Assembly (NCBI RefSeq): GCF_022808915.1
Contig: NZ_JAKZFS010000001.1
Location: forward strand, 372,001 to 436,000
Reading direction: 5' to 3'
DNA length: 64,000 nucleotides
Source of the DNA: Fundidesulfovibrio terrae
GTDB lineage: Bacteria; Desulfobacterota; Desulfovibrionia; Desulfovibrionales; Desulfovibrionaceae
Shown: positions 1,179-6,226 of the stretch, piece by piece
Layout: each line of letters starts with the position of its first letter
How positions within the stretch are numbered: the first letter of the stretch is position 1
Notes under the pieces: model-generated
What the model saw: the letters and a program-made list of their open reading frames with translations, nothing else
Told to the model about the DNA's origin: nothing
Databases searched by the model: none
Program-made: the position numbers and the translations under genes

Positions 1179-3074
1179 CTAGAAGCGCAGCTGCACGCCC
1201 AGCTCCAGGACGTGCTCGGGCGGGATGTTGTAGTAGGTGGCCGGGTTGGTGGCGTTGCGGTGCAGGAACACGAACAGCGCCCGGCGCAGCGGCCCCATGG
1301 ACGAATGCCTGGCGGGCACCAGGGCGATGCGTCCCAGGTAGAACTTGGCCGCCTTCACGTCCACGGGCAGCCCCTGGCGCGCGGCCAGGCGCAGGAGCGC
1401 CGGGGCGTCAGGGGTCTCCATGAAGCCGGTCCTGGCGATGACCCGGTGGATGCCCTGTCCCAGGTCGCTCACCTGCAGGCGCTGGGAGTCGGGCACCACG
1501 GGCACGTCCTCGGTGACGATGGAGAGCAGCACCACCTTCTCGTGCAGCATCCTGTTGGTGTTCAGATGCTGCAGGAGCATGGGCGGGATTTCCTTGCGGA
1601 AGGTGGAAAGGAACACCGCCGTGCCCGGCACGCGCGCGGGGTTGTCCGCCTCCACGCGCCTGACGAAGCGCTCGATGGGCAGCCGGTGCGAGAGCATGCG
1701 CCTGGCCAGGGTGCGCCAGCCGTCGCGCCAGGTGATCATGACCCCCATGAAGGCCACGGCCACGGCCACCGGGAACCAGCCGCCCGAGAGGAACTTGGTC
1801 AGGCACGATCCCAGGAAGGCCAGGTCCATGACCAGGAAGAGCGTCGTGAGGAGCCCCGCGCGCCACTCGGGCCAGCCCCACACGCCCACGGCCACGCGGT
1901 AGAAGAGCACCGCCGCTATGGTCAGCGTGGCCGTGACCGCGATGCCGTACGCCTCGGCCAGGTTCTCCGAGGCGCGGAACTCCAGGGCCAGGAACAGGCA
2001 TGCGGCCAGCATCATCCAGGTGACGAAGGGCAGGTGGATCTGCCCCTGGGTCCTGGCCGAGGTGTGCACCACCTGGAGCCTCGGCATGAAGCCCAGCTGG
2101 ATGGCCTGGCGGGTCTGGGAGTACACTCCGGAGATGATGGCCTGGGAGGCGATGATGGTGGCCGCCGTGGCCAGGATCACCAGGGGAACGGTCAGGGCGG
2201 CCGGGGCCAGGTTGTGGAAGGGCTCCTCGGCGGCCTCGGGCCGGGCCAGCAAAAGCGCCCCCTGCCCGAAATAGTTGAGCACGAGCGCGGGCAGGGCCAC
2301 CGCGAACCAGGCCAGCCGGATGGGGTTTTTGCCGAAGTGCCCCATGTCGGCGTGCAGGGCCTCGGCCCCGGTGACGCAGAGCACCACCGCGCCGAGCATG
2401 AGAAATCCGTGCAGGCCATGGGCCATGAAGAACCGCGCGCCCCAGACCGGGTTGGCGGCCGCCAGGATGTCCGGCCGGGCCAGAATGGGCGGGACGCCCA
2501 AGGCGGCGATGGCCGCGAACCACACCAGCATCACCGGGCCGAAGAGCCTGCCGATGGAGCCCGATCCGCGCGACTGCACGGCGAAAAGCCCCACGAGAAC
2601 GGCGCAGGCCAGGGGGAGCACCAGCGCCTTGGACTGCGGCGCGGCCACCTCCAAGCCCTCCAGTGCGGCCAGCACGGAGATCACCGGGGTGATGGCCCCG
2701 TCGCCGTAGAGAAGCGCCGCCCCGAACAGGGCCAGGAGCACCATGCGCCCGCCGGGCCGGGCGTCCGGGGTTCGGTGGAGCAGGGCCAGCATGGGAAATA
2801 TCCCCCCCTCGCCCTGGTCGTCCACGCGCAGCATGAACACCGCGTACTTGAGCCCCACCATGAGCAGGAGCGACCACAGGATGAGCGAGCATATCCCCAG
2901 CACGTTCTCCGGGGTGGGGTCAACGAGATGGAGTCCCGTGAAGCATGCCTTCATGGCGTACAGGGGCGAGGTGCCTATGTCGCCGAACACCACGCCCAGC
3001 GCCCCCAGGGCCAGCATCCTGGTGGAATGGGCACGGTGCTCCGGGTGGGGGTGGACTTCCTGAGGGGTGGACAT
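1179..3074 (-). CDS. kup: Kup-type low-affinity potassium/proton symporter
   Basis: This 631-residue inner-membrane protein has the Kup/HAK/KT signature near the N-terminus (GALGVVFGDIGTSPLYAM), about twelve hydrophobic segments and a hydrophilic C-terminal domain of roughly 180 residues. The length is normal for bacterial Kup. It imports K+ with protons. I chose the ATG at 3074 (MSTPQEVHPHPEH) because the frame upstream reads as non-protein sequence; the Shine-Dalgarno there is weak. The gene diverges from the ABC exporter gene across 124 bp and reads into the degenerate GGDEF gene, whose ribosome binding site overlaps its stop. I saw no riboswitch-like structure in the leader. Confidence 0.95.
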   Translation of the reverse strand: MSTPQEVHPHPEHRAHSTRMLALGALGVVFGDIGTSPLYAMKACFTGLHLVDPTPENVLGICSLILWSLLLMVGLKYAVFMLRVDDQGEGGIFPMLALLHRTPDARPGGRMVLLALFGAALLYGDGAITPVISVLAALEGLEVAAPQSKALVLPLACAVLVGLFAVQSRGSGSIGRLFGPVMLVWFAAIAALGVPPILARPDILAAANPVWGARFFMAHGLHGFLMLGAVVLCVTGAEALHADMGHFGKNPIRLAWFAVALPALVLNYFGQGALLLARPEAAEEPFHNLAPAALTVPLVILATAATIIASQAIISGVYSQTRQAIQLGFMPRLQVVHTSARTQGQIHLPFVTWMMLAACLFLALEFRASENLAEAYGIAVTATLTIAAVLFYRVAVGVWGWPEWRAGLLTTLFLVMDLAFLGSCLTKFLSGGWFPVAVAVAFMGVMITWRDGWRTLARRMLSHRLPIERFVRRVEADNPARVPGTAVFLSTFRKEIPPMLLQHLNTNRMLHEKVVLLSIVTEDVPVVPDSQRLQVSDLGQGIHRVIARTGFMETPDAPALLRLAARQGLPVDVKAAKFYLGRIALVPARHSSMGPLRRALFVFLHRNATNPATYYNIPPEHVLELGVQLRF

Positions 3075-3198
3075 GCCCGCAGCATAATCTTGTTTTTTAA
3101 CGGAAATCCAGCGGATTTTGCCTGCCCCGCCTGCCCGCCGGTTGCCTTGCTGGCCGATTCCGGGCATCACATGGCAAACGAGGATCAAAGGCCGCTCC

Positions 3199-5733
3199 AT
3201 GCAGCTTGGACCGAAACTGCCGGACAAGATCTACAAGAGGTCGCTCTTCTCCTGGGTGCTCACCAGCAACCTGAAGCTCCAGCTGATCCTGTTGCTGGTG
3301 ATCGTGGTGACGGTGGCCATCCGGGTGCTGCCCCTGGAGATGCAGAAGAAGATCATCAACGAGGCCATCGGCGAGCAGAAGGTCCACCTGCTGCTCATCT
3401 ACTGCGGCTACTACCTGGCGGCGGTGGTGTCGTCCTCGGCGCTCAAGTTCGTCATCAACGCCCTGCAGACCTACATCGGCCAGGAAGCCCTGGCCGACAT
3501 GCGCAAGAAGCTCTACGCCCACATCCTGACCCTGCCCATCAACTTCTTCCGCACCGCGAGCCCGGGCATGATCGTGTCCTCGCTGGTCACGGAAGTGGCC
3601 AACGCGGGCGACTTCATCGGCCAGGCCATCGCCGTGCCCGTGACCAACGTGCTGACGCTCCTGGCTTTCGCCGCGTATCTCTTCTACCTCAATCCGCTGC
3701 TGGCCGGGCTGTCCATGGTGCTCTATCCGCTGGCGCTCATCTTCGTGCCCATGATGCAGAAGCGCTCCAACGAGGCCAACCGCGAGCGAGTGGACACCGG
3801 GCGCACCATGTCCACCATGATCGGCGAGACGGTGTCGGGCATCCACGAGATCCACGGCAACGCCTCCTTCCGCCACGAGAACAATCGCTTCTCGGCCATC
3901 ACCGATCGGCAGTTCAAGGTGCGCTTGCGCTGGACCCTGTGGAAGTTCGGCATCAAGAACTCCAACAACTTCTTCCAGTCCCTGGGGCCGTTCGTGCTCT
4001 TCCTGGTGGGCGGCTGGCTGGCCATCAACGGCCGCTTCGACCTGGGCGCGCTGGTGGCCTTCCTCTCGGCCAACGAGAAGCTCTACGACCCCTGGAAGGA
4101 GCTCATGGACTTCTACCAGTCCTGGCAGGACGCCACGGTGAGCTACAACCGGGTCATGGAGTACTTCGCCGAGGACTGCGAGTTCACCCTGGAACCGGCC
4201 GAGGCCCGCGCGCCGCTCACCCTGCCCGGGAAAATCGACGTGAAGGACCTGGTCATGGAGGCCCAGGGCGGGGTCAAGCTCCTGAAGGGCGTGTCCGTAG
4301 CCGTGGAGCCGGGCCAGCACCTGGCCCTGGTGGGCTTTTCGGGCTCGGGCAAGTCCACCCTGGCCCTGTGCATCGCCCAGATCTATAAATATTCCTCGGG
4401 CCAGTGCCAGCTGGCCGGACACGAGATCGCGGACATGGCCAAGTCCGACCTGGCCGAGAACATGGGCTTCGTGCCGCAGCACCCCTTCATCTTCGAAGGC
4501 AGCATCAAGGAGAACCTGCTCTACTCGGTCAACTCGCGCAGCGTGGACAAGGGGCTCGATCCCAAGGAGCACGAGCCGAGCCTGGACCGGCTCATCGAGG
4601 TCATCCAGCAGGTGGGGCTTTTCCTGGACGTGCTGCGCTTCGGGCTGAACACGGTGTTCCGCAAGGGCAAGAAGGAACACTTGGTGCAAAAGCTCATCGC
4701 CGTGCGCGAGGCGTACTCCCGCGAGCAGGGCGAGGAGCTCAGGAACCTGGTGGAGTTCTTCGACGAGGGGCGCTACCTGGAATACTCGTCGGTGGCGGCC
4801 AACATCCTCTTCGGCAACCCCAACGACGACGCCTACCTGCCCGAAAACCTGGCCCGCAACGAGGAGTTCCTGACATTCTTGCGCGAGGCCGGACTGGAAG
4901 CCATGCTGGAGGACCTGGGCCGCAGCCTCACCATCCAGACCGTGGACATCCTGAAGAACGTGCCCGGCGCGGACGCATCCTTCTTCGAGCAGAGCCCCAT
5001 GCAACTCGAGGAGTTCGAGGCGTATTCGCAGCTGGCCGAGCGCCTGGAGCGCGGCGAGGGGATCTCCCCGGGGGACTCCCGCATGCTTTTGACCCTGGCC
5101 CTTCGCTACACCCCCGGCCGCCACGCCCTGGCCTCCCCGCCCACGGGGTTCCGGCGCAGGCTCCTTTCCGGGCGCGCCCTGTTCATGGAGCGCATCTCGG
5201 CCCTGCCCGGGGAGAAGGTCACCTTCTACCGGCGCGACAACTACATCCACTCCCAGACCATTCTGGACAACATCCTCTTCGGCAAGCTCAAGACCGAGAG
5301 CCCCAAGGTGATGGACAAGGTCAACAAGACCATCATCATGCTGCTCATCCAGGAGGACATGCTGGAACGCATCGTGGAACTGGGCCTGGACTTCCAGGTG
5401 GGCACCCAGGGCGACAGGCTCTCGGGCGGGCAGCGCCAGAAGGTGGCCCTGGCCCGGGCCTTCCTCAAGGAGCCGCCGCTTCTCCTGCTGGACGAGGCCA
5501 CGGCCGCCCTGGACAATGCCTCCCAGACGCGTATCCAGAATCTTCTGGATTCGAAGTGGAAGGGCCGCTCCACGGTGATCGCCGTGGTGCACAGGTTGGA
5601 CACCATCAAGGGATACGACAAGATCGCGGTCATGAAGGCCGGCCAGATCGTGGAAACGGGCTCCTACAAGGAGCTCATGGATAGAAGGGGGATGCTCTAT
5701 GAGCTCGTCCACGGAACAAAAGCCGGCGGGTAG
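3199..5733 (+). CDS. ABC exporter half-transporter with an unusually long ATPase domain
   Basis: This 844-residue protein has an N-terminal transmembrane exporter domain (roughly residues 20-330) and a C-terminal ATPase. Walker A is GFSGSGKST (379-387), followed by a Q-loop segment VPQHPFIFEG. The signature LSGGQRQK starts only at residue 741, then Walker B (LLLLDEATAALD) and an H-loop (VVHRLD). Walker A to signature spans about 355 residues instead of about 110, leaving some 240 extra residues. The post-Q-loop pattern recurs as IKENLLY, VAANILFG and ILDNILFG, which suggests internal duplication. The substrate is unknown. The ATG at 3199 follows an AAAGG Shine-Dalgarno. The stop lies inside the next gene, a 35-bp overlap implying coupled expression with the cyclic-nucleotide-binding protein. 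Confidence 0.88.
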   Translation: MQLGPKLPDKIYKRSLFSWVLTSNLKLQLILLLVIVVTVAIRVLPLEMQKKIINEAIGEQKVHLLLIYCGYYLAAVVSSSALKFVINALQTYIGQEALADMRKKLYAHILTLPINFFRTASPGMIVSSLVTEVANAGDFIGQAIAVPVTNVLTLLAFAAYLFYLNPLLAGLSMVLYPLALIFVPMMQKRSNEANRERVDTGRTMSTMIGETVSGIHEIHGNASFRHENNRFSAITDRQFKVRLRWTLWKFGIKNSNNFFQSLGPFVLFLVGGWLAINGRFDLGALVAFLSANEKLYDPWKELMDFYQSWQDATVSYNRVMEYFAEDCEFTLEPAEARAPLTLPGKIDVKDLVMEAQGGVKLLKGVSVAVEPGQHLALVGFSGSGKSTLALCIAQIYKYSSGQCQLAGHEIADMAKSDLAENMGFVPQHPFIFEGSIKENLLYSVNSRSVDKGLDPKEHEPSLDRLIEVIQQVGLFLDVLRFGLNTVFRKGKKEHLVQKLIAVREAYSREQGEELRNLVEFFDEGRYLEYSSVAANILFGNPNDDAYLPENLARNEEFLTFLREAGLEAMLEDLGRSLTIQTVDILKNVPGADASFFEQSPMQLEEFEAYSQLAERLERGEGISPGDSRMLLTLALRYTPGRHALASPPTGFRRRLLSGRALFMERISALPGEKVTFYRRDNYIHSQTILDNILFGKLKTESPKVMDKVNKTIIMLLIQEDMLERIVELGLDFQVGTQGDRLSGGQRQKVALARAFLKEPPLLLLDEATAALDNASQTRIQNLLDSKWKGRSTVIAVVHRLDTIKGYDKIAVMKAGQIVETGSYKELMDRRGMLYELVHGTKAGG

Positions 5734-6226
5734 CGCCTGCGGGTACAGCGATTTTCTGGACATCATGCGCGCCCTGCCCCTGTTCTCCAGGGTGCCCCTG
5801 GACGTGTGCAAGGTGCTGGCCTACCTGAGCACGGCGGAGACCTTCCAGGCCGGGGACGTCCTGGTGCGCCAGGGCGAGCACGCCGAGGCGTTCTACTACC
5901 TGACCTGCGGCCGGGCGTCCGTGAGCTGGAAGGACGGGGAGACCGAAGTGGAGCTCAAGACGCTGCGCGAGGGCGATTCCCTGGGCGGGCTGGCGCTGAT
6001 CCTTGGGGCCGGGAGCCTTTTCACCGTGCGCGCCGACGAGGAGACCGTGGCCATGACCCTTACGCGCGAGAAGTTCCAGAAGACGGTGCAGCGCTTCCCC
6101 CAGGTGGAGCCCGCCCTGCTGCAGGCCCTGGCCGAGCACGTCCTGGGCTGGGAGGAGCGCTTCCTCTCCCGTCATCCCCAGGAGTTCGCTTCCCTGGGGC
6201 AGGACTTCGGGCTCACCCTCTTCTGA
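5699..6226 (+). CDS. Cyclic-nucleotide-binding domain protein
   Basis: This 175-residue protein is essentially one cNMP-binding beta-roll. It begins with a linker (MSSSTEQKPAGSACGY), then LPLFSRVPLDVCKVLAYLSTAE and the cupin-like pattern GDVLVRQGEHAEAFYYLTCG ... LREGDSLGGLALILGAG. No DNA-binding helix-turn-helix follows, so it is not a full CRP-type regulator. Some residues usual in the cAMP phosphate-binding cassette are missing (no R-[ST]-A), so the ligand is uncertain. It overlaps the ABC exporter gene by 35 bp and probably acts with it as a soluble regulatory partner. A hairpin terminator follows directly. Confidence 0.82.
   Translation: MSSSTEQKPAGSACGYSDFLDIMRALPLFSRVPLDVCKVLAYLSTAETFQAGDVLVRQGEHAEAFYYLTCGRASVSWKDGETEVELKTLREGDSLGGLALILGAGSLFTVRADEETVAMTLTREKFQKTVQRFPQVEPALLQALAEHVLGWEERFLSRHPQEFASLGQDFGLTLF

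Follow-up and report, generated by a model that had tools for sequence, protein, structure and literature searches.

The window analysed here is a stretch of 64,000 nucleotides from Fundidesulfovibrio terrae (contig NZ_JAKZFS010000001.1, positions 372,001 to 436,000), and coordinates given below refer to it unless another locus is named. On its plus strand it encodes an ATP-binding cassette (ABC) exporter half-transporter of 844 amino acids (3199–5733), whose ATPase domain carries a large insert between the Q-loop and the signature motif, and directly downstream a CRP-fold protein of 175 amino acids (5699–6226). This pair is probably an ABC exporter with the fold of P-glycoprotein and MsbA in which an insert, derived mainly by duplication from the ATPase domain itself, forms a regulatory platform together with the CRP-fold subunit. 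If this is true, an ABC ATPase has built a regulatory domain from its own helical subdomain. The components are of known kinds; their combination, a self-duplicated ATPase subdomain, a dedicated partner and a sister branch devoid of ATPase residues, did not come up in the titles and abstract openings that the literature searches listed.

Repeated segments in the ATPase domain of the exporter

The exporter gene lies in an open frame from 3118 to 5733 whose first codon is a TTG at 3118. The ATG at 3199 was chosen as start, which yields the reading of 844 amino acids, the stop codon being included in 3199–5733. Pfam assigned a transmembrane domain (PF00664, ABC_membrane; 3292–4068, residues 34–292 of a reading from 3193, E 3.5e-27) and an ABC ATPase domain (PF00005), the match of the latter falling in two separate stretches. 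The catalytic set is complete and consists of Walker A (GFSGSGKST, residues 379–387, 4333–4359, with the codon of K385 starting at 4351), the Q-loop glutamine Q427 (4477–4479), the signature LSGGQ (residues 741–745, 5419–5433), Walker B (LLLLDE including the catalytic Glu, residues 761–766, 5479–5496) and the H-loop histidine H798 (5590–5592). Every catalytic residue checked, with K385, Q427 and H798 among them, is invariant across 72 aligned rows. For this comparison a scan of genome contigs with two search patterns supplied the best 80 of 195 relatives, and nine of the 80 loci were left out of the alignment as incomplete; by their titles 79 of the loci are of Desulfobacterota type and one is from Aminicenantes. 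Since LSGGQ was contained in one of the patterns, the intact signatures among the 80 are partly given by construction.

Between K385 and LSGGQ we counted 356 residues, in agreement with the approximately 355 reported in the initial annotation. In the P-glycoprotein homologue 4f4c the corresponding spacing, counted by hand from the alignment, is 98, so that the surplus amounts to about 258 residues. The extra segment is therefore real, although its size had been underestimated at 240 residues. A spacing of about 100 is a usual but not a defining exporter trait, and the window protein does not show it. The spacing is 351–378 across the 72 aligned relatives and 356–365 in 30 loci fetched from the 35 matching genomes of the organism's own family (the window's own locus is among the 30). 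These 30 loci came from a search with the full-length protein, and all of them retain Walker A and LSGGQ. As the long spacing is kept in relatives, the observation is correct and describes a fixed family trait.

An AlphaFold2 model of the exporter was built on the alignment of the 72 relatives (predicted local distance difference test, pLDDT, 83.7; predicted template modelling score, pTM, 0.76; block means mostly about 90 across the ATPase part). According to the model the exporter keeps a complete, ordinary core ATPase fold: the TAP1 domain 2ixe_A could be superposed with 247 of its 251 residues on model residues 330–839 (root mean square deviation, rmsd, 2.0 Å, Z 29.7), and the ComA domain 3vx4_A with all of its 239 residues (rmsd 1.8). 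Because the core is complete, the surplus is an insertion and not a replacement. A single ordinary ATPase fold had been named as the outcome that would speak against an unusual domain; the ordinary core was indeed found, yet together with a folded insert and an abnormal spacing. Folded alone, the insert segment (residues 443–698, 4525–5292) reached a pLDDT of 92.3 and a pTM of 0.84, and it is predicted to be a compact helical domain of about 255 residues able to fold by itself. The idea of a disordered insert was rejected on this pLDDT. No Pfam family was found above its curated cut-off within the insert; a match to SMC_N (32.9 bits, cut-off 40, residues 546–814) was taken as the signature/Walker B end common to ABC ATPases.

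The motifs IKENLLY (436–442), VAANILFG (532–539) and ILDNILFG (688–695) are all present in the exporter, and their Asn residues N439, N535 and N691 are the same in every one of the 72 aligned relatives. As far as sequence comparison can tell, these ENILFG-like motifs are true repeats, the ATPase domain holding three copies of the segment from the Q-loop to the helical subdomain. Unit 1 (residues 420–522, 4456–4764) comprises the true Q-loop strand, IKENLLY, helices and a tail helix with R503; unit 2 (residues 515–678, 4741–5232) has a strand at 518–520, VAANILFG, helices, about 60 extra residues and a tail helix with R659; unit 3 (residues 671–766, 5209–5496) has a strand at 674–676, ILDNILFG, helices, the LSGGQ helix and Walker B. 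The two tail arginines are identical in all 72 rows. In profile–profile comparisons the unit heads align in register across 52–58 columns with scores of 45.7 (unit 2 versus 3), 27.5 (1 versus 3) and 27.5 (1 versus 2); 60 column shuffles of each pair reached at most 18.1, 18.6 and 19.9, respectively, and 12 unrelated control segment pairs at most 14.9. Units 1 and 2 also match in their tails (25.0, shuffle maximum 13.1). The motif copies noticed in the initial annotation are thus beyond chance, and its suggestion of a discrete inserted domain including repeats of the helical-subdomain segment is borne out by the profile comparison and by the predicted fold of the insert alone.

ABC ATPase domains occupy the top five places among the structural matches of the insert (Z 4.4–5.4, 72–95 residues), the first being CFTR 494–565 (Z 5.4, 72 residues), which lies on the segment from Q-loop to signature. 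The VIA list for the insert holds five rows above Z 2.7, all ABC ATPases, and leaves room for other families. The simplest history, and the main origin of the insert, would be that the ATPase duplicated its own segment from the Q-loop to the helical subdomain. Following the duplication, the Q-loop would reside on copy 1 and LSGGQ on copy 3, and copy 2 would have gained the approximately 60 further residues.

The CRP-fold partner gene and its ligand pocket

The downstream protein matches PF00027 (cNMP_binding) with an E value of 1.3e-15. No other Pfam domain is listed for it, and in particular no DNA-binding domain is among its Pfam matches. The partner gene starts with an ATG at 5699, still within the exporter open reading frame (ORF), which ends at 5733, so that the two ORFs share 5699–5733; the overlap had been recognised correctly in the initial annotation. 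A CRP-fold gene was found directly downstream of the exporter in 70 of 77 testable loci and was missing in seven; in the remaining three of the 80 loci the contig ends too soon. Overlapping ORFs were seen in 66 of the 70 partner loci, with neighbouring genes taken as mechanical ORFs and partner starts picked by rule. The presumed co-occurrence of exporter and CRP-fold gene is thus frequent, and in some relatives the two are even fused, but it is not universal. A homologue lacking the insert while keeping the same neighbours did not come up, although no systematic search for one was made.

We built a profile from 16 window-type partners. With this model eight rhizobial downstream partners scored 98–120 bits, and five CRP-fold ORFs that are not partners, among the matches listed, scored 48–51 bits; L046, a true downstream partner, reached 78 bits. 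The partner was present in nine of ten plasmid loci checked, the Methylobacterium locus being without it. In Azospirillum, Ruegeria and Sulfitobacter a CRP-fold domain is fused to the C-terminus of the exporter (fusions at L151:5007-8156, L152:5001-8108 and L153:5001-8105). In the genome of F. terrae, which contains nine CRP-fold domains, one of four ABC_membrane exporters stands beside a CRP-fold gene. A regulatory pairing of exporter and CRP-fold partner is well supported because of the adjacency in 70 of 77 loci, the usual overlap and the fusion in relatives.

Most of the 16 aligned window-type partners end in a tail of the form G-x-(S/T)-(mostly L)-(hydrophobic), which is missing from the rhizobial rows printed. 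This C-terminal tail is a possible docking peptide.

The initial annotation had raised the idea of a nucleotide-gated exporter. In this wording the idea is not supported for the window, as can be seen from the ligand-pocket segment of the partner (residues 97–108, 5987–6022). The position of the canonical Glu of the cyclic AMP (cAMP) site is taken by G97, and those of Arg, Ser and Ala by S106, L107 and F108, so that both residues of the canonical phosphate-binding pair, Glu and Arg, are replaced (by Gly and Ser). The Glu occurs in nine of 80 partners and in none of the 16 window-type partners; among the rows printed it is present in all five alphaproteobacterial ones and in none of the 14 others, the window included. 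The Arg is kept in 58 of 80 partners. The separate alphaproteobacterial partners keep Glu, Arg and Ala. With these residues lost in the window and kept in rhizobia, cyclic-nucleotide binding appears doubtful for the window partner and plausible for the rhizobial ones.

Distribution and a branch devoid of ATPase residues

The insert is conserved in homologues, which the initial annotation had named as a supporting result. Full-length relatives were found in 35 of 99 genomes of the organism's own family, and the insert was found in 90 of 247 sampled genomes of the class and in 20 of 297 of the phylum Desulfobacterota, the own genome being counted in each case. The difference between class and phylum indicates a patchy distribution. 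Most carrier genomes contain one copy, some two or more. In addition, 252 plasmid records contain the insert, mainly from Rhizobium and Sinorhizobium, and further plasmid members come from Azospirillum, Ruegeria and Sulfitobacter.

The alphaproteobacterial members were obtained from the plasmid collection only. Fifteen loci were fetched, and 12 of them were examined for motifs (L141–L147 and L149–L153; left out were L148 and L154, both unannotated S. meliloti, and L155, a protein of 497 amino acids consisting of the membrane domain only). All 12 are without the Walker A Lys, the Q-loop Gln, LSGGQ, the Walker B Glu and the H-loop His; the Walker B Asp is kept in two. Yet all 12 retain the Asn of each repeat motif, and the six loci tabulated retain both inner Arg residues as well. 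These degenerate members are 903–1049 residues long and have no stops, and omega (determined here and below with a simple counting method, the DNA being GC-rich) is 0.03–0.10 across all regions in three close pairs, which points to strong purifying selection in these, and 0.07–0.40 for two more distant pairs. With long open frames and low omega they do not look like pseudogenes. Since this branch keeps the unit while its ATPase has degenerated, the conserved function may lie in control and not in pumping.

The neighbours of the alphaproteobacterial loci include glycosyltransferases, an oligopeptide-type importer, an annotated class III cyclase and a metallophosphoesterase. An annotated cyclase is near two fetched plasmid loci, and PF00211 was tested and found for one of them. 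At L146:8704-10404, slightly downstream of the exporter/partner pair, a class III nucleotide cyclase is joined to a 2Fe-2S ferredoxin-type domain. From these neighbours a glycan-related cargo might be guessed.

Among the Desulfobacterota loci, with neighbours again taken as mechanical ORFs, 68 have 2 kb of downstream sequence; the partner is followed there by a gene for an RsbW-like ATPase in 29 and by a STAS gene in 25. Of 63 loci with 3.5 kb of upstream sequence, 30 encode a SpoIIE-type phosphatase on that side. These three families, assigned by Pfam at a single locus (L037), form what we take to be a partner-switching set, and such neighbours fit the idea of a signalled transporter. In the first 12 kb of the window, where the ORFs were read by eye, no SpoIIE, RsbW-like or STAS gene stands beside the pair. 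An anti-phage system was also considered and rejected; the PADLOC hits sit on the ABC ATPase and CRP-fold parts and were read as shared domains.

Comparison with known systems and weighing of the alternatives

With the ABCB-type (type IV) exporters MsbA, Sav1866, TAP and P-glycoprotein the window protein shares the membrane domain, Walker A and B, the Q-loop, LSGGQ, the H-loop and the core ATPase fold; it differs from them by about 258 extra residues with repeated segments and by its dedicated CRP-fold partner. With the NCBIfam equivalog model for MsbA it scores 320.7 bits, far below the cut-off of 602. SMC/Rad50-type ABC ATPases have a large insertion between Q-loop and signature as well, but this is a coiled coil in a soluble protein, whereas the insert described here is predicted to be a compact helical domain and is part of an exporter. 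The regulatory insertion of CFTR also lies within an ABC ATPase domain; it is short and precedes the Q-loop. The bacteriocin-type transport-associated cNMP proteins of TIGR03896, judged by the name of the model, are likewise exporter-associated CRP-fold proteins, but the window partner reaches only 29.3 bits with this model (cut-off 161).

A precedent is HetC of Nostoc PCC 7120, an ABC exporter whose N-terminal cNMP-type domain is reported to bind guanosine tetraphosphate (ppGpp) in vitro and to be needed for HetC function in vivo (PMC10986499). In HetC the domain is N-terminal and accompanied by a C39 peptidase. In contrast, the family described here has a separate downstream partner or a C-terminal fusion, and no C39 peptidase domain is among the Pfam matches of the window exporter in a listing up to E 1. 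Literature searches covering the titles and the beginnings of abstracts of the papers listed yielded no description of the insert or of the exporter/CRP-fold pair, and the part of PMC5498481 consulted contains nothing on the window exporter gene.

In the regulatory platform that we favour, the control unit would have two parts, one in cis (the insert) and one in trans (the CRP-fold subunit). Both would most likely make up a cytoplasmic platform close to the interface at which ATP hydrolysis is coupled to the membrane domain. Located between Q-loop and signature, the insert could act on this coupling, and through the platform a small ligand, or some other signal, would turn the transporter on or off. 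The exporter is presumably a homodimer, and in the unfused forms a physical complex with the partner, translational coupling of the two genes and a regulatory role of the partner are likewise presumed.

Several observations weigh against this platform. The structural matches of the insert are weak (Z of at most 5.4, low by the tool's own note), and a Foldseek search with the insert alone returned nothing at E <= 0.001, the best E value being 0.42; in view of the low Z values it is the sequence repeats that carry the argument for duplication. Neither the tail of unit 1 nor that of unit 2 aligns with the LSGGQ signature helix, so that the notion of a decayed signature helix closing these units is unsupported. 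Comparisons within the window's genus show the insert to evolve faster than the rest of the protein (omega 0.18–0.65, versus 0.06–0.21 in the membrane part, in three pairs, for which synonymous divergence tracked protein identity poorly). The fused CRP-fold domains score only 43–66 bits with the partner model. Moreover, some members keep exporter and insert, the partner not being nearby. The genomes of six of the seven neighbour-less loci were searched: those of L091, L101, L108, L109 and L110 (four Pseudodesulfovibrio and one Salidesulfovibrio) gave CRP-fold hits of 50–58 bits only, against 197 and 213 bits in two control genomes with partner, and the genome of L086 encodes a partner-like protein of 134 bits outside the fetched locus. 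From such weak hits the partner seems absent, and hence dispensable, in the five genomes. Finally, the literature searches found no experiment on the exporter family.

The fast evolution of the insert within the genus, the members that dispense with the partner and the ordinary core fold could also be read as signs of an ordinary exporter with a neutral or stabilising insert, the adjoining CRP-fold gene encoding an unrelated regulator. We regard this as improbable, since it leaves unexplained why the two genes are paired in 70 of 77 loci and overlap in 66 of 70, why rhizobia have the same partner subfamily and why the genes are fused in some relatives, and the partner has no listed DNA-binding domain. 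Still far less credible is an assembly artefact, a frameshift or a chance ORF: only isolated members are broken, such as G132 and L096, where the exporter frame breaks in or close to the insert, and the full-length relatives with their uniform spacing (351–378 and 356–365) refute it by conservation. A strict cyclic-nucleotide-gated exporter, in which the partner binds cAMP or cyclic GMP and thereby gates transport in the window too, has the CRP fold of the partner, two class III cyclase domains in the own genome, the site residues kept by the separate alphaproteobacterial partners and the cyclase near two plasmid loci on its side. The four altered site residues of the window partner, the absence of the Glu from all window-type partners and the binding of ppGpp by the HetC domain (PMC10986499) make it unlikely, although binding may well occur elsewhere in the family, where the Arg is kept in 58 of 80 partners.

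It is somewhat easier to imagine, though we would not expect it, that the family consists of ABC-derived signalling or gating proteins whose main job is no longer pumping, ATP-dependent in Desulfobacterota and ATP-independent in alphaproteobacteria. The 12 loci that lost the ATPase residues and kept the repeat Asn, the inner Arg residues in the six tabulated loci together with the low omega in three close pairs, and the SpoIIE, RsbW-like and STAS genes flanking many Desulfobacterota loci agree with this proposal. The invariant catalytic residues in the 72 rows (one search pattern held LSGGQ) and the intact Walker A and LSGGQ in the 30 loci from the full-length search argue against it. Tentatively, and with slightly more confidence, the alphaproteobacterial members may be ATP-independent, ligand-gated ABC-fold proteins (a flippase, a channel or a surface-glycan signal transducer), the Desulfobacterota members having kept hydrolysis and changed the sensor site; the family would then be a new branch in which the duplicated subdomain is a docking platform for the CRP fold. 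The fused, overlapping and partner-less forms with intact or degenerate ATPase sites would provide a natural series for asking what ATPase, insert and sensor each do, and a CRP-fold-associated ABC protein under purifying selection without ATPase residues would bear on the evolution of non-transporting ABC proteins.

Two further genes were noted in the surroundings of the exporter. A PqqD-like gene is found about 1.8 kb downstream in 19 of the 68 Desulfobacterota loci. In the window, a Kup-like potassium transporter, named by eye from its sequence, is encoded on the minus strand at 1179–3227, divergent from the exporter gene.

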